Shown: one piece after another, positions 45,259 through 62,857 of the stretch | Position numbering within the stretch: the first letter of the stretch is position 1 | Layout: every line of letters starts with the position of its first letter | From: Fibrobacter sp. UWB10 | GTDB lineage: Bacteria; Fibrobacterota; Fibrobacteria; Fibrobacterales; Fibrobacteraceae | Direction of reading: 5' to 3' | DNA: 64,000 bases | Assembly: GCF_900182935.1 (NCBI RefSeq) | Contig: NZ_FXUE01000001.1 | Location: 1 to 64,000 of the forward strand | Translations under genes and position numbers: made by a program | The notes under the pieces: generated by a model | What the model saw: the letters and a program-made list of their open reading frames with translations, nothing else | Databases searched by the model: none | Told to the model about the DNA's origin: nothing

Positions 45259-47019
45259 ATGGAAAATGCAAAAAAGACCATTAACCTGTTCCTCAAGAAC
45301 AAGTTTAACAGCGTAAACGAACTGAAAGCCGAATTGTACAAGGCTGGTGTTGCCGCCATGGAAGAAGGCTGGACGTTCATGGACGCCAGTTTCCAGCTAG
45401 GCGGCAAGGCCCGCGACGACGGCATGGACGGCGAAGAGGTCGAACAGACTCTTCGCCGTGCGTTCTCCGCTGAAAAACGCACCACGGAACGCCCAGAAGA
45501 AAAGCCTGCAACGCAGAACGCCCAACCGGCTGCGGAAGGCGCCATGCCCCAGACACAAGCTGCGGCCGCCCCGCAGACAGTTGCCATGCCGATTATCACC
45601 CCGCTGTCGGCAAACATGATTTCCATGGAACAGATGCTTGCCATGGGCCTCGATACTCAATCCTTGGAATTGTTGCAAAACTTCAAGATTGACCCCGAAG
45701 CACTTTCCATTCCTTGGCCCGCAGCAGACTGGCGTAAAGACTTAGCCAAACTTTTGGAAGCGACTTTTGATCCCGAAGAAACGATTTCGTTCAAGGTTTC
45801 AAACACTCCCGAAACAACCGAAGAACTTGTATCGAACATTATCGGGCAAGATGACTCTATCAAGAAAATCATGAAGAGTCTCGACAGTCCCGAAGGCGCC
45901 CTATTGTGCATTAACGCCGTAAAGGGCGGCGACGACGTCACAGATGAATCTTTCCGTTACCGCTATGTGGTAGTCGACAACCCCAAGATGTCCTTGGCCA
46001 AGCAGCTCGCCTACTACAAAGCCTTGAACTTGCCCTGCGCAGCCCTCGTGAACACTGGCGCAAATTCAGTGCAGGCTTGGGTAAAGATTTTTGCAAACGA
46101 CGAAGAAGAATACAACGAACGCGTAGACTTCCTTTTCAAGACACTTGATTCCCAAGGATTCAAGGTCGACCCGAGCAACAGCAACCCGCACATGATGGTG
46201 CGTATGCCGGGCGTGCTCCGCGGCGGTAAGCAGCAATACCTGATTGGCCTGGAACAAGGTGCCAAGAACTTTAAGGAATGGCAAGAATGGGTGGAATATT
46301 CTTTGGACGGAAAACCGCTCATTGAACTGGCTAGCGACACCGAAGAAGCCCCCAAGAAAGACCAGACCATTGTCGAAAACATGCTCCGTGCGGGTGAATT
46401 CTTCTTGTTCACCGCACCTCCGAAGAGCGGTAAGTCTCTTGCGCTCATGGATTTAGGCCTATCCATTTGCTACGGCGAAGACTGGTTCGGCAATTCAACG
46501 TCTTCTAGCGACGTGTTGTTCATCAACTTCGAACTGACCAAGTCTGTGTTCCTGAACCGCCTTTACCTATTGGCCGGCAAGCGCAACTTGAACGCCAGCA
46601 CCCCGAAATTCGGTTTCTTGAACTTGCGCGGTACGGCTCTTTCACCGATTGAAACAGCCCAGCTCATTGCAAAGCGTATTCAAGGTGCCAAGCGACTCGA
46701 AAACCATGATTACCGCGTCGTTGTCATCGACCCGATTTCGGCCGTATTGCACAATCCGAAGTCTACACGCTTGAATGGAGCCCCGCACCAGATTTTGATG
46801 CAGATGGTCGACACCATTATCGCCCTCACAGGGTGCGCCGTAGTGTCGTCTTGCAACATTGATGAATACCCCTACCTCGAAGCCCGCGCCGACTCGCTTA
46901 TCAAGCTTTCGCCGGTGGAAGGCAGCCTGAACCTTTACCAGATTAATGGAACATTCCGCGAATTCCCGAAGATGCTCGCCCGTGAATGCTCCTGGATTTA
47001 CCCGAGATTCCTTGTATAG
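45259..47019 (+). CDS. Primase-helicase-like protein (degenerate PrimPol domain plus AAA_25 RecA-like ATPase)
   Basis: A 586-residue protein. Residues 1-75 are helical, 76-120 an Ala/Pro/Gln-rich linker, about 190-350 an archaeo-eukaryotic-primase-like domain, and about 360-586 a RecA-like AAA_25 ATPase with Walker A APPKSGKS (386-393) and VVVIDPIS as Walker B. In related primases the middle part reads ESD, then SGGKSxHAW, then RLPG. Here these are VVDNP (near 240), TGANSVQAW with Gln272 in place of His, and RMPG (315-318). So the primase is probably inactive while the ATPase looks intact. A GAGGCG SD precedes the ATG. Such proteins are usual on plasmids and phages; the context here is chromosomal. 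Confidence 0.72.
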   Translation: MENAKKTINLFLKNKFNSVNELKAELYKAGVAAMEEGWTFMDASFQLGGKARDDGMDGEEVEQTLRRAFSAEKRTTERPEEKPATQNAQPAAEGAMPQTQAAAAPQTVAMPIITPLSANMISMEQMLAMGLDTQSLELLQNFKIDPEALSIPWPAADWRKDLAKLLEATFDPEETISFKVSNTPETTEELVSNIIGQDDSIKKIMKSLDSPEGALLCINAVKGGDDVTDESFRYRYVVVDNPKMSLAKQLAYYKALNLPCAALVNTGANSVQAWVKIFANDEEEYNERVDFLFKTLDSQGFKVDPSNSNPHMMVRMPGVLRGGKQQYLIGLEQGAKNFKEWQEWVEYSLDGKPLIELASDTEEAPKKDQTIVENMLRAGEFFLFTAPPKSGKSLALMDLGLSICYGEDWFGNSTSSSDVLFINFELTKSVFLNRLYLLAGKRNLNASTPKFGFLNLRGTALSPIETAQLIAKRIQGAKRLENHDYRVVVIDPISAVLHNPKSTRLNGAPHQILMQMVDTIIALTGCAVVSSCNIDEYPYLEARADSLIKLSPVEGSLNLYQINGTFREFPKMLARECSWIYPRFLV

Positions 47020-47083
47020 CACGAGCCTGCGGCCCTTTGAGCAAAGAGGTCGCAACTACGTTGCTTTGAGGCATGAGTTTATA

Positions 47084-48412
47084 ATGAAGAACGAAAGAAT
47101 GAAGAACAATTTTAAAGGTACAAACAATCGCGCACGCGGAAATTCCTTGCGTCGCGGCAAAGAACAGACGGAAACCCCGAAAGAAGAAAAGCCGGTACGT
47201 AAAGCTCCGGTGACATTCGAAGACATTAAGCAACAGCTCGCCGCCTGGGTTGAAAACGAACATATTCCCGGAAAATTTCAGGCATGGTTTACGGCTGATG
47301 CAATACCGGATCACGCAGATTGGCGCATTCTAAAGACTTACCGCGGCAAGCAAGAAATTTTCACAATCGAAGCACCTGCCCGCGGCATGGAAGCCCCCGA
47401 ACTTGTGACCCGCGTTTTTGAACAAATCAAGAAAGAGCACTTGCATATCTTTAAGAAGGCTCTTCGCCAGATTTGGTTCCGCGCCGTTGGTGACGGACGC
47501 TACGCCATGCTTGTACAAGTAAACCTGAAGGGCCGATTCTCAGCCCACGGTTACAAGACTTTCATTGATTTCGTACAAAGAAACTGTCCTGAAGTTATCA
47601 GTTGCCACCACATTCAATGCTTGCCCGACCAGCCTTTTGATCCGGCAGGAACTATTCCGATGAAGGTCGAAGCCAAGAGCGCCTTCGGTAGCGACTTTAT
47701 GCCAATAGGCGAAACTGGAATCAGCATGCATGTGCTGGATTGGACGCCGCGTATTCACGACGCCTGGATTGGCCTCCCGAAACGTATCGAAGATGCAATC
47801 CACCCGAATGCAGAAGACAGCTTCTTTGAATTCTATTCCGGAAGTTCTTTTGTAAGCGCCATGCTTGCAAACCGATTCAAACGCGTTGTTTCGATGGATT
47901 GCCGCGAATATGCCATGATGTCTTCGCGCTTGAATGCTCGTAACGCCTTGGATGACAACATGAAATTCATCCGCAGTCATGTAGAGCAGGAATTTTTCGG
48001 CAAATTCTTCAGCAAGCCCGAAAACGAAGGCCGTTGGACATTCTATTTCAACCTGCCCGGCGACGAACCATTGGCACAGGGAGTTGCTCAAGCTGCAGCC
48101 CTTTCGAGACCGGAACGAATTCTTTTGCAGACATCGAACCTTGAAGTAGCGGCACGCACCATCAAGCAATTCAGGAATGAAGGCTACATGCTGCGTAAGA
48201 ATATCCCGCTTTACCTGGAACCCGGTTCTGGAAAATTCGAGATTCTGTTCCTGTTCGTGCCCGACCGAGTAGGCGTTTTAGGGCAGAATCCGGCTCAAAA
48301 ACAGCGTTCTAGGACCATTCAGCGCCCACAAGAACGCGTTTCTGGCCGAAAAACGCAAGAAATTCCGCATTTTAGTCAAAAAAGCCCTTCTTTTAAGCAA
48401 AGAAAAGGTTAA
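47084..48412 (+). CDS. TrmA/RlmD-like methyltransferase-fold protein lacking catalytic motifs
   Basis: A 442-residue protein with a basic N-terminus. The layout follows RNA m5U methyltransferases: a substrate domain (about 60-220), then a SAM-type fold with FFEFYSGSSFVSAML (near 249) and RVVSMDCREYAMMSSRLNARNAL. The catalytic features are gone: the DPPR loop reads LPGDE (near 324), and the SC[ND]P active-site cysteine motif reads QTSNLE (near 348). The SAM loop also lacks the usual DLYCGxG. A non-catalytic RNA-binding role is possible. The start is uncertain between 47084 and 47099; the first ATG overlaps a TATAAT. It follows the degenerate primase-helicase by 64 nt and may share its mRNA. 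Confidence 0.68.
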   Translation: MKNERMKNNFKGTNNRARGNSLRRGKEQTETPKEEKPVRKAPVTFEDIKQQLAAWVENEHIPGKFQAWFTADAIPDHADWRILKTYRGKQEIFTIEAPARGMEAPELVTRVFEQIKKEHLHIFKKALRQIWFRAVGDGRYAMLVQVNLKGRFSAHGYKTFIDFVQRNCPEVISCHHIQCLPDQPFDPAGTIPMKVEAKSAFGSDFMPIGETGISMHVLDWTPRIHDAWIGLPKRIEDAIHPNAEDSFFEFYSGSSFVSAMLANRFKRVVSMDCREYAMMSSRLNARNALDDNMKFIRSHVEQEFFGKFFSKPENEGRWTFYFNLPGDEPLAQGVAQAAALSRPERILLQTSNLEVAARTIKQFRNEGYMLRKNIPLYLEPGSGKFEILFLFVPDRVGVLGQNPAQKQRSRTIQRPQERVSGRKTQEIPHFSQKSPSFKQRKG

Positions 48413-58444: not shown

Positions 58445-59119
58445 CTACACAAAATACGGGTAGATGTAATTTTCAGCGAGCGATTCCAAATTATCCAGCA
58501 ATGCGGATTTGCAAGCGATATCCGTCTTTTCGTAGAGAGCGCGAAGGTCTTTGAGCGAGAAGTTTTCAAGGTATTTTCGCGAGGTCGGCAAGTGCGCGAT
58601 ATGCCACTTTTCGGGCTGAATCTTGCCGCGGCCAGGCACGAATACGCGCTCGAAGCCGAAGGACTCGCCCGCCCCGATTAGTTCGGTCAACTTTTCATGG
58701 AAGGGGCGGAACATGCCGTCACATTCGGCGGGGGTGAGTTCCACCTCGTAGCCGGCAGGGCATGCATTGCCATCGACCACGTCTAAATCAGTGCCCAAAT
58801 GGTGACGGCTTGCGCCAGGGAGCGCCGACCAAGTTAAAATCGCATACATCAATTGTTCTTCGTCTGCCGGGCGCTCCATGGGGAGTCCTTCGGCAGAAAG
58901 CAGTTTGAGTTCACCACTTGCCTTGCGATTCCAAATCGAAAGTTGACGTTCGAACGGGCGGTAGGCGGATTCTATGCGGAGAGCAAAACCGCACTTCGCA
59001 AAAGTCTCTTTTAATTTGTTGTAATCGCCGAGAACCTGTTTGTCAACAATGTAGCCATCGACCTCAACAAAATCAGCAGAGTCAACCGGACGAAGGCCGT
59101 AACAAATCTTGAAGTCCAT
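58445..59119 (-). CDS. M15B D-Ala-D-Ala carboxypeptidase (VanY-like), no signal peptide
   Basis: A 224-residue zinc peptidase of the VanY/DacY fold. Zinc motif SALPGASRHHLGTDLDV (S-x-H-x3-G-x3-D-like) and WHIAHL near the C-terminus are visible. VanY-type enzymes remove terminal D-Ala from peptidoglycan pentapeptides. There is no signal peptide (MDFKICYGLRPVD), so a cytoplasmic role in recycling is favoured. The ATG overlaps the ruvC stop by 1 nt (TGATG), so translation is coupled. Confidence 0.83.
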   Translation of the reverse strand: MDFKICYGLRPVDSADFVEVDGYIVDKQVLGDYNKLKETFAKCGFALRIESAYRPFERQLSIWNRKASGELKLLSAEGLPMERPADEEQLMYAILTWSALPGASRHHLGTDLDVVDGNACPAGYEVELTPAECDGMFRPFHEKLTELIGAGESFGFERVFVPGRGKIQPEKWHIAHLPTSRKYLENFSLKDLRALYEKTDIACKSALLDNLESLAENYIYPYFV

Positions 59120-59697
59120 CAGACATGCCCTCCCATCTTTTCAATCAAATCTAGCCACTGCTTGGTAGTCGCCTTCTTTTTGCGCACGACCTTCTTTTTA
59201 CCGAGAACCTTAGACACCGCATCGTTCAGCGGAGACGGATTCGCATGAGTCCATGCGATTGCTAAAGCATCGGAAGCATCGAGCGGCAAGCCACTCCCTT
59301 GTATTCCGAGGCGCGCAAAAATCATGTTGGCCACTTGTTCCTTGGAAGCGCCACCATCGCCTGTAACCGCCTGTTTGACAACTCGCGGGCTGTATTCGCT
59401 ATACGTAATTCCGCGCTTGCGGCAGGCCACCAGAACCGCGCCACGAATGTGGCCTAGCACTAGAGCACTCTTGGCATTTTTCGCAAAGAAAATACCTTCC
59501 ATGCCAAACGATTCGGGCTTGTATTTGTCCAATAATTCTTCGAGCCCGGACACGATATGCAACAGTCGATCTTCGAGCGCATGGCTTGCTGGAGCATGCA
59601 AAGTTCCGTATTCCAGGACCTTTACTTTTTGTGCGCTAGATTCAATAAATGCATAACCGGTCGTAATGGTGCCGGGGTCAATTCCAAGGACAATCAT
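59119..59697 (-). CDS. ruvC: Crossover junction endodeoxyribonuclease RuvC
   Basis: A 192-residue RNase H-fold nuclease that resolves Holliday junctions. The catalytic acids are D7 in LGIDPGTITTGYA, Glu in GMEGIFFAKN, and the pair in DASDALAIAWTH. A Lys/Arg-rich stretch (KKKVVRKKKATTK) near the C-terminus is an extension beyond the usual ~170 residues. It starts the operon ruvC-vanY-like-mpaA-like. ruvA and ruvB are not in the window. Confidence 0.95.
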   Translation of the reverse strand: MIVLGIDPGTITTGYAFIESSAQKVKVLEYGTLHAPASHALEDRLLHIVSGLEELLDKYKPESFGMEGIFFAKNAKSALVLGHIRGAVLVACRKRGITYSEYSPRVVKQAVTGDGGASKEQVANMIFARLGIQGSGLPLDASDALAIAWTHANPSPLNDAVSKVLGKKKVVRKKKATTKQWLDLIEKMGGHV

Positions 59698-59774: not shown

Positions 59775-61670
59775 ATGATTATCGACCAAGAACATGCAGG
59801 AATTGTCATGCGAGCCAAGACCCATCCGCGACAGCTGGGAATCCCTTTAAGTCGCTGGGGCCGAAATCTGATTGCATGCTGCCCGTTTCATTCTCCCGAA
59901 GAAACGTCTCTGTTCTTTTATGACGCTTTAGGATACTGGCGCTATCGTTGCTTGCAGTGCGGCAGCGAAGGTGACCTTGTTGAATTTGTAATGCGCAGTC
60001 GCTTTAACGGCATGGACGAACAAGCCGCTAGAGCGGAAGCTGTAGACTTTTTAGGAACGCTTGAACCGGATCGCGACCGCGAACAAGATGAACATCCGTG
60101 GATCAAGGAAATCGGTGGCGAAAAATCCAAGGTTCTCGAAAACTTTGTGCGCTACTGCCACTGGGCCGCCTGCAGAAGCCCGTCTTCGGCCGACTTCTTG
60201 GCCGCCCGCGGATGGAGCATTGGTCAGGCTCAGCTTTATGGCATTGGCTATTACAGCGGCGACCCGGAACCGTTCGTGAGCTTCTGCATGATGTCGGGCA
60301 TTGAACGCCACCAAATCAGTTTTTATCTGGACAACTTGGATGCCTACCACGAACCGCGTATCACGATTCCTGCCCGCAATTCTAAGGGCTTGATTCACTC
60401 CGTTTACGGTCGCCTGATCGATGAATCTGACGGACCGCACACCTATGTTTCTTACGCCTCGGGCCCGGCAGACATTCCGTTCAACATTCAGTCCGACATT
60501 ACAAAACCTGTAATTGTCGAAGGCTTCTTCGATGCACTGACCGCCGACCTCGCCGGCATTCCGGGTGTGGTTTCGACCATGTACCAGGAACTGAGCCTGA
60601 GCCACCTGTACAAGCTGAAGGCTTGCGGAGCCGAATCGGTAACGGTTATCTTAAGGCGCGAACAGGACCGCCGCGAACAGGAATACCGCATTCAGAAATA
60701 CCTGAAAATGGCCGAGCACCTCGGTCTGAAATTCAAGTCCATCGTTCTCCCGAAAGACGAAACGGTCGACATTGTGGTCCGCAAGAACGGCGCCGACCAG
60801 TTGCTTTCGCTTGTCGAAAATACAGTCGAAGACACGGTACACACCCACCGCCGCTCCATGCTGTTGCAGGACATCAAGGAAAACTTCGATGCCGCCATGG
60901 TTTGCCCGCCGGATGTAAGCGTTGGCTACGCCCTCAACACCTTCCCGAAGTTGACTCAGGAAATTGACGGCATTCAGTCTGGCTGCTTCTATGTGTCATC
61001 GAAGCCCTTCGGCCTGAAGACGACCCTCCTTTCGAGCCTTGCTTTGGATTTGGTCCAAAGTAACCCGAAGCTCAAGCTGATTTACATTGCCCTCGAAACG
61101 CCTCGCCGTCAAATCTTTGACAGGCTCGTCGCCATGCTGATTGGCGAATCGGTGCTGACCGTGCGCAAACAAAGCGAAGACGAAGGCGTAAACCAGAAGA
61201 TTCTGGAAGCGACCCGCGACCTGATGGCATTCGTGCGCAACAACCGCTTGGAAATCTGGGACGACCAATTTGATTTCGACAATATTGAACTGCTTGCGAA
61301 CTTGAGAGAAGAAATCAAACAGCACCACAACTTGGTCGTTGTCATTGACGGCATCGACCATTTGAAGGTTTCGGACTACGCGGAACTTCTGGACATTCAC
61401 GAAAGACGTTCTTCGGTAATCCTCGACTTGTACAAGGCCCTGGACATTCCGATGTTCGTTGGCGGAGAGCTCATCTCTTCTGACGAAGGACTTGTGGGAC
61501 CACGCGCCTACCTGCGCGATTCCGATGCCATTTACTGGCTGGAATCCAAGGACGGGAAAATGGTTCTTACCGTCGATTCCAAGCGCTTGGGCAACAACCA
61601 GCTGTACCAAGGTTCGATTTCAATCGACCCGGCTTCTAACCGCATGCAAGAAGAAGCCGAGATCGACTAA
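59775..61670 (+). CDS. DnaG/Toprim-DnaB-type primase-helicase fusion, catalytically eroded
   Basis: A 631-residue protein with the order of T7 gp4/Twinkle. A CHC2-like zinc finger (C36-x2-H39, C59-x2-C62), a Toprim domain (about 240-345) with Glu249 in VEGFFDAL, and a RecA/DnaB-like ATPase (about 400-625) with Walker B LVVVIDGID. In active primases the second Toprim motif is DxD; here it is R294-R295-E296. Walker A is also off-type, SSKPFGLKTT (408-417), with Leu before the Lys. Priming is therefore unlikely and ATP hydrolysis uncertain. An AGAGGA SD precedes the ATG. Its TAA overlaps the next ATG (TAATG). A chromosomal repair or recombination role near ruvC is speculation. Confidence 0.75.
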   Translation: MIIDQEHAGIVMRAKTHPRQLGIPLSRWGRNLIACCPFHSPEETSLFFYDALGYWRYRCLQCGSEGDLVEFVMRSRFNGMDEQAARAEAVDFLGTLEPDRDREQDEHPWIKEIGGEKSKVLENFVRYCHWAACRSPSSADFLAARGWSIGQAQLYGIGYYSGDPEPFVSFCMMSGIERHQISFYLDNLDAYHEPRITIPARNSKGLIHSVYGRLIDESDGPHTYVSYASGPADIPFNIQSDITKPVIVEGFFDALTADLAGIPGVVSTMYQELSLSHLYKLKACGAESVTVILRREQDRREQEYRIQKYLKMAEHLGLKFKSIVLPKDETVDIVVRKNGADQLLSLVENTVEDTVHTHRRSMLLQDIKENFDAAMVCPPDVSVGYALNTFPKLTQEIDGIQSGCFYVSSKPFGLKTTLLSSLALDLVQSNPKLKLIYIALETPRRQIFDRLVAMLIGESVLTVRKQSEDEGVNQKILEATRDLMAFVRNNRLEIWDDQFDFDNIELLANLREEIKQHHNLVVVIDGIDHLKVSDYAELLDIHERRSSVILDLYKALDIPMFVGGELISSDEGLVGPRAYLRDSDAIYWLESKDGKMVLTVDSKRLGNNQLYQGSISIDPASNRMQEEAEID

Positions 61671-62857
61671 TGTTCACCATAGTTGATTTCAACAACTTCT
61701 GGAGTCCATCGGGCGGTGGCGTACGACGCTACCACCTGCAAAAGATGGCATTTTACGAACAACAAGAAGAAGTCTTGTCGGTGTTCGTGATGCCGGATTC
61801 CAAGACTTATACCGAACAGAAAAGCAACGGGCTCATTATCGAGCACGTGGAAGCGTACCGATTCCCGGGCAAGTGGGAATACCGCTTTATGTGGCGTCCG
61901 TCGCAAATCAAGCCCATCCTTGAGAAGTACAAGCCCCAAGTGATTGAAGTCGGTTCGCCCTATATTTTGCCGACCGTGGTGCGACACGTTGCCAAGAAGG
62001 TTGTGCCCAACGCCATTCTTTTGAGTTTCTGGCATGCGGACTTTCCCATTACCTACGTGCAACGCCCCGTGACAAACAAGTTCGGCCGTACGCTAGGCAT
62101 TTTGGCGAAGAAGGTCGCCTTCTGGTACGCTAGACAAGAATTCAAGCATTTTGACGGCATCCAGGTTTCTTGCGACGAAGTCCTGAAGCGCCTCGAAAAG
62201 AATCGCCTGCCCAAATCGCACTGGATTCCGCTCGGTTGCGATATTCAGATGTTCTCGCCCGCAAAACGCGACGAAGCGCTTGTTCAGAAATTAAAAGCCG
62301 GAAAACCGGAACGACTCACTATCTTTTTCCCGCATCGTTTTTGCGAAGAAAAGGGAATCGAGCTCTTGTTGGGCGCCTACCCCCTGATTGCAGAAAAGCT
62401 GGGATGCGAACCGGCGCTTGTCTTTGCCGGCACAGGCCCGTACCTGCCGCAGGTCGAAGAAGCGGTCAAGAAGCATTCTCACATTCAATACGCCGGATTC
62501 ATTTCGTCGATCGATGAAATGGCAAGACATTACGCCAGCGTAGACATGGGACTGGCCCTTTCGGGCTGGGAAACCTTCGGGCTTTCGATTCTGGAAAGCA
62601 TGGCCTGCGGAAACGCCCAAATTGGGGCAAGCACAGGCGCCGCTGCTGAACATGTGCTGAACTCAGGTGCTGGCGTTGTCTTGAAAAAGCGCACGCCCGA
62701 AGCCCTGGCAGACGCCATTGTAGAACTTTACCGTTCGGACCTGAGCCAAAAGAAGGCAAACGCCCGAACCTACGCCGAAAAATTTAGTTGGAACGATTGC
62801 TTTAAGCGGCAATTGGACCTTTACAAACAAATTTATAATCAAAAGAGGAAATCATGA
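61670..62857 (+). CDS. GT4-family glycosyltransferase
   Basis: A 395-residue GT-B glycosyltransferase. The N-terminal nucleotide-free domain starts VDFNNFWSPSGGGVRRYHLQKMAF; the C-terminal donor-binding domain has HRFCEEKGIELLLGAYPLI, and the conserved E-x7-E as GLALSGWETFGLSILESMACG. It is expected to transfer a sugar from a nucleotide-sugar to a lipid or envelope glycan. Closely related enzymes include mannosyl- and glucosyltransferases. The TGA overlaps the next ATG (ATGA). Confidence 0.92.
   Translation: MFTIVDFNNFWSPSGGGVRRYHLQKMAFYEQQEEVLSVFVMPDSKTYTEQKSNGLIIEHVEAYRFPGKWEYRFMWRPSQIKPILEKYKPQVIEVGSPYILPTVVRHVAKKVVPNAILLSFWHADFPITYVQRPVTNKFGRTLGILAKKVAFWYARQEFKHFDGIQVSCDEVLKRLEKNRLPKSHWIPLGCDIQMFSPAKRDEALVQKLKAGKPERLTIFFPHRFCEEKGIELLLGAYPLIAEKLGCEPALVFAGTGPYLPQVEEAVKKHSHIQYAGFISSIDEMARHYASVDMGLALSGWETFGLSILESMACGNAQIGASTGAAAEHVLNSGAGVVLKKRTPEALADAIVELYRSDLSQKKANARTYAEKFSWNDCFKRQLDLYKQIYNQKRKS

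Follow-up and report, generated by a model that had tools for sequence, protein, structure and literature searches.

Most Fibrobacteraceae encode on their chromosome a DnaG-DnaB-like fusion protein whose primase and helicase sites are both degenerate

The window analysed here is the whole stretch of 64,000 nucleotides from Fibrobacter sp. UWB10. On its forward strand, an ORF with an ATG start at 59775-61670 encodes a protein of 631 aa, referred to as X throughout, a DnaG-DnaB-like fusion in which the primase and the helicase sites are both degenerate. The N-terminal part of X contains a CHC2-type (DnaG) zinc ribbon (residues 18-95, 59826-60059), which matches Pfam PF01807 over the cut-off (E = 4e-9); this match is found in 19 out of 19 members of the X family. 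The zinc ligands are C36, H39, C59 and C62, located in the CPFH (36-39) and CLQC (59-62) motifs. Next come the DnaG N-terminal alpha/beta core subdomain (residues 118-242, 60126-60500), delineated with TIGR01391 and a DnaG alignment, and the Toprim subdomain (residues 243-345, 60501-60809), recognized by profile matches, the DnaG alignment and secondary structure. The Toprim subdomain contains the first Toprim motif, EGFFD (residues 249-253, 60519-60533), and R294-R295-E296 (60654-60662) at the position where the DnaG alignment leads one to expect the catalytic DxD. The helical segment at residues 346-385 (60810-60929; predicted helix at 355-374) probably corresponds to a DnaB-type linker, judging from its place ahead of the RecA domain as in DnaB. 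The DnaB-type RecA domain itself covers residues 386-606 (60930-61592) and is assigned by its fold and by PDB profile matches to DnaB. By motif positions, its Walker A is the degenerate SSKPFGLKTT (residues 408-417, 60996-61025), with Leu414 followed by Lys415. X is acidic as a whole (net charge -26, pI 5.2) and its zinc ribbon has no net positive charge.

Sequence and fold matches place bacterial DnaG and bacterial DnaB as the apparent nearest relatives of X. TIGR01391 (dnaG) matches residues 23-357 with an E-value of 9e-24. The score is 84 bits versus a curated cut-off of 283.6, meaning that X is homologous to the DnaG equivalog but is not a member of it. When compared with PDB, the profile of the X family matches Aquifex DnaG (2au3, 1.6e-11) and DnaB chains (6e-6). 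The predicted RecA part aligns with bacterial DnaB over about 240 residues at 2.5-2.6 Å (Z 26). T7 gp4 and Twinkle stand below bacterial DnaB in the same fold list (Z about 22-23), an order that excludes nothing. The predicted model is good for the C-terminal half only, the mean AlphaFold pLDDT of the N-terminal half being 50, and thus DnaG structure matches of the latter half mainly echo the sequence evidence. X shares with bacterial DnaG (TIGR01391; Aquifex 2au3) the order of zinc ribbon, alpha/beta core and Toprim, the four zinc ligands and, within the core, the P-x-R-N-x-K-G and YGR motifs. By contrast, it has RRE for DxD, a threonine for the first downstream metal-binding aspartate and no basic-ridge lysines, and a DnaB-type RecA domain is fused where DnaG has its C-terminal domain. 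With the C-terminal domain of bacterial DnaB (PF03796), X shares the RecA fold, an invariant Walker B aspartate and the preceding linker-like helix, but it has no DnaB N-terminal domain, all members of the family are without the P-loop glycine, and further catalytic residues are missing in some of them. The order along the chain (primase module, linker, SF4 helicase module) is that already known from T7 gp4 and mitochondrial Twinkle. The first-pass annotation, which described the protein as Twinkle-like, was therefore correct as to domain order, whereas bacterial DnaG and DnaB match X best and the pattern of losses differs. Metazoan Twinkle has lost three of the four zinc cysteines and has kept primase motifs II-VI and the helicase (PMC7231222). 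The pattern is different in X, where the zinc ribbon is intact and both catalytic sites are degenerate.

Conservation was assessed in 71 distinct sequences of the X family. The first-pass annotation had read from this single ORF a primase-helicase fusion with an intact zinc finger, RRE in place of the Toprim DxD and a leucine before the Walker A lysine. All of this is confirmed, with the motifs where it had placed them, and the four zinc ligands are invariant (71/71). R294, R295 and E296 align with D-G-D of DnaGs from the same phylum (YLVFDGDAAG in the DnaG of this organism), directly after a predicted Toprim strand (288-293), and the profile alignment with 2au3 agrees. An intact DxD is present in none of the 71 sequences, so that the loss of the Toprim metal site, whose conservation had been proposed as a check, is family-wide. 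The site mostly reads R-R/K-E/D; among the deepest members, G002 has E-R-G and G104 (L086) has D-K-H, i.e., one aspartate is retained. The claim that EGFFD is intact holds for X but not for the whole family, since the glutamate is replaced by glutamine in one subclade and by serine in G002, and the motif is PHIFD in G104. The aspartate of EGFFD is unchanged throughout. In the alignment with DnaGs of the phylum, the first downstream metal-binding aspartate, which we take to be D345 in E. coli numbering, is a threonine in X; in the basic ridge, the K229-equivalent is also a threonine and the K241 region is deleted. In E. coli DnaG, the basic ridge consists of K229, Y230 and K241, and D309 chelates metal, yet the D309A mutant shows wild-type-like relative substrate use (PMC7367122). 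A single aspartate can thus be lost without activity necessarily being abolished, and the case for a dead primase rests on the sum of the losses. The dN/dS values of X are low (0.024-0.071 in five pairs), indicating that the gene is kept by selection. Together with the absence of DxD from the family, they rule out a recent single mutation or a pseudogene; as judged from these sequences, the RRE and P-loop changes are old and fixed.

In the RecA domain, the glycine preceding the P-loop lysine position is found in 0 of the 71 sequences, its place being taken by L, H, Y, F, D or another residue. Lys415, Thr416, Glu441, Asp525 and the K/R (SKR) finger are present in X and most Fibrobacter sequences, and the Walker B aspartate (Asp525) is invariant in the family. 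Given these residues, some ATP binding or hydrolysis by X may persist. The same residues, along with the close match of the RecA fold to DnaB (Z 26), would suit an ATP-driven ring motor, either a helicase or an annealing/strand-exchange factor, which works with an odd P-loop and in which the primase half alone is dead. However, in addition to the glycine missing from every member, L090 has serine for the P-loop lysine and lysine for the helicase glutamate (Glu441 in X), and g6 members have aspartate for this glutamate and have lost the K/R finger (LKNSG for SKRLG). Furthermore, the RecA domain is less conserved than the alpha/beta core, Toprim and the zinc ribbon, the latter being the most conserved domain of X. 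We thus consider a working ring motor unlikely.

X is immediately followed by a gene for a GT4-type glycosyltransferase (GT; 61670-62857, forward strand), the start of which overlaps the stop of X (TAATG). The X-GT pairing is found in all loci examined, including those of G002, G104 and the rearranged G108. On the other side, ruvC (59119-59697, reverse strand) is divergent from X, with 77 bp between the two genes. It adjoins X in most genera, lies a few kb off in G108 and is located elsewhere in G002 and G104, which weakens the case for X as a repair gene by ruvC linkage. The remaining neighbours are housekeeping genes. Membership of X in a defence system was also considered and rejected, as the PADLOC matches span the zinc ribbon only. 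Whole-genome searches for X covered the phylum Fibrobacterota, and relatives from other phyla may thus have escaped them. Full-length X was found in all Fibrobacter genomes searched and in the Fibrobacteraceae genera g3 and g5-g11, with the exception of G109 (71% complete). It was not found in g2 (one genome) or g4 (12 genomes, four of which are at least 90% complete), and the searched Fibrobacterota outside Fibrobacteraceae yielded no full-length X, only partial DnaG-type matches. In the 3.48 Mb genome of this organism, X (contig C1) is the sole gene of its kind, the second, weak match being the ordinary DnaG on C3. In a contig scan, matches were restricted to Fibrobacter/Fibrobacteraceae loci, including a 99.5-100% identical locus in a F. 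succinogenes MAG. A scan of viral contigs revealed no relative, and phage and plasmid searches gave no full-length match. Thus, with its housekeeping neighbours, conserved synteny and presence in all Fibrobacter genomes searched, X is a resident chromosomal gene and not a prophage gene, consistent with the absence of phage context already remarked upon in the first-pass annotation. The glycosyltransferase tree leans towards loss of X in g4, but a later gain in the other genera is not rejected (AU p 0.155).

The adjacency of X and GT in all loci examined, with overlapping stop and start in the window, brings up the possibility that X was recruited outside DNA replication together with its co-transcribed GT, for example, into envelope synthesis or its regulation. 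This appears rather improbable, since GT is found without X, beside other genes, in g4 and in other families, and conservation within X is highest in its nucleic-acid parts, the zinc ribbon and the DnaG core. In g4, GT (L124-L126) adjoins a gene resembling an RNase H/viroplasmin-type protein.

A second degenerate primase-ATPase, P0002, is encoded at 45259-47019 on the forward strand. It combines a degenerate primase (phrog_2597, 3e-71) with a RecA-like ATPase (AAA_25 domain) and is unrelated to X in sequence, as the first-pass annotation had stated for the gene at 45259. In the sequences compared, Walker A of P0002 is intact, whereas motifs I and II of its AEP-like primase seem to be gone. P0002 is followed by a gene for a 488-aa protein (46946-48412) with no Pfam match, which is still beside P0002 in G104 (32% identity). 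In G033, a genome that is 81% complete, full-length X occurs twice, on different contigs (G033:C11:57179-59068 and G033:C15:2540-4417), versus once in the other listed genomes; P0002 and GT are doubled there as well, so that a mixed assembly is possible. Among Fibrobacteraceae genera, the distribution of P0002 nearly equals that of X, both being missing from g2 and g4, and many Fibrobacter genomes have the two genes in the same order, separated by about 14.5 kb. This co-occurrence fits a shared system, though it rests on few events, because the absence from g2 and g4 may reflect one shared loss or a state in which neither ever had the genes. The two proteins might accordingly form one complex, with the ATPase contributed by P0002 and zinc-ribbon template binding by X, capable of primosome-like remodelling without priming. 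Such a second, non-priming primosome-like assembly of X and P0002 (in which the AEP-like primase would be dead and the ATPase live) would load, park or remodel forks beside DnaG and DnaB. We regard this combined system as quite improbable: P0002 occurs without X in f2/g12 (33-34% identity in family f2), and the co-absence from g2 and g4 may be a single event (AU p 0.155).

Standard replication genes are present in the same genome, namely, a canonical DnaG on C3, an ordinary DnaB at C1:479514-480272 and DciA at C1:233735. DciA is found in genomes with and without X, which speaks against the simple form of the idea that X stands in for a missing helicase loader. The DnaG of G009 (L136), a genome of the genus g4, where both X and P0002 are missing, sits on a long branch (1.63) in a small DnaG tree, perhaps due to faster evolution.

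Phages typically encode fusions of zinc ribbon, Toprim and DnaB modules, and phrog profiles of phage primase and helicase match X, but the view that X is a functionless leftover from a primase-helicase of phage or plasmid origin is highly improbable, being contradicted by the dN/dS values (0.02-0.07), the presence of X in every Fibrobacter genome searched with conserved chromosomal neighbours and the lack of a full-length viral or plasmid match; an ancient phage origin may still apply, whereas functionless decay is excluded.

The explanation which we favour, and to which we would give about an even chance, is that X is a domesticated double pseudoenzyme, resident in most Fibrobacteraceae, with a structural or regulatory role at replication forks or on ssDNA. 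A non-catalytic factor of this kind is preferred because it is the best fit to the conserved parts of X. Based on its residues, X most likely makes no primers and probably does not unwind DNA efficiently, and it may still bind nucleic acid. The scaffold would have been retained, with the zinc ribbon, the PxRNxKG/YGR core and the RecA domain with its linker-like helix, and X would thereby keep those parts of DnaG and DnaB that serve ssDNA binding and assembly. It might, for example, occupy the template, hold or block DnaB or DnaG, or assemble with the ATPase P0002, and standard replication would be carried by the cell's own DnaG, DnaB and DciA. The acidic overall charge of X and its linkage to GT call for caution with respect to a role on ssDNA or at forks. 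In particular, the most conserved neighbour of X is a glycosyltransferase and not a replication gene, which counts against this explanation. The accessory replication or repair system suggested in the first-pass annotation is a tentative reading, as the neighbouring ruvC does not adjoin X in G002 and G104.

A search of the open-access literature found no description of X. The double catalytic loss under strong selection, beside normal DnaG and DnaB, points to non-catalytic use of a primosome scaffold, and X represents a bacterial contrast to Twinkle, with another set of losses. For the Fibrobacteraceae, a little-studied group of importance in the rumen, X would predict a replication or repair factor, or else an exapted protein.
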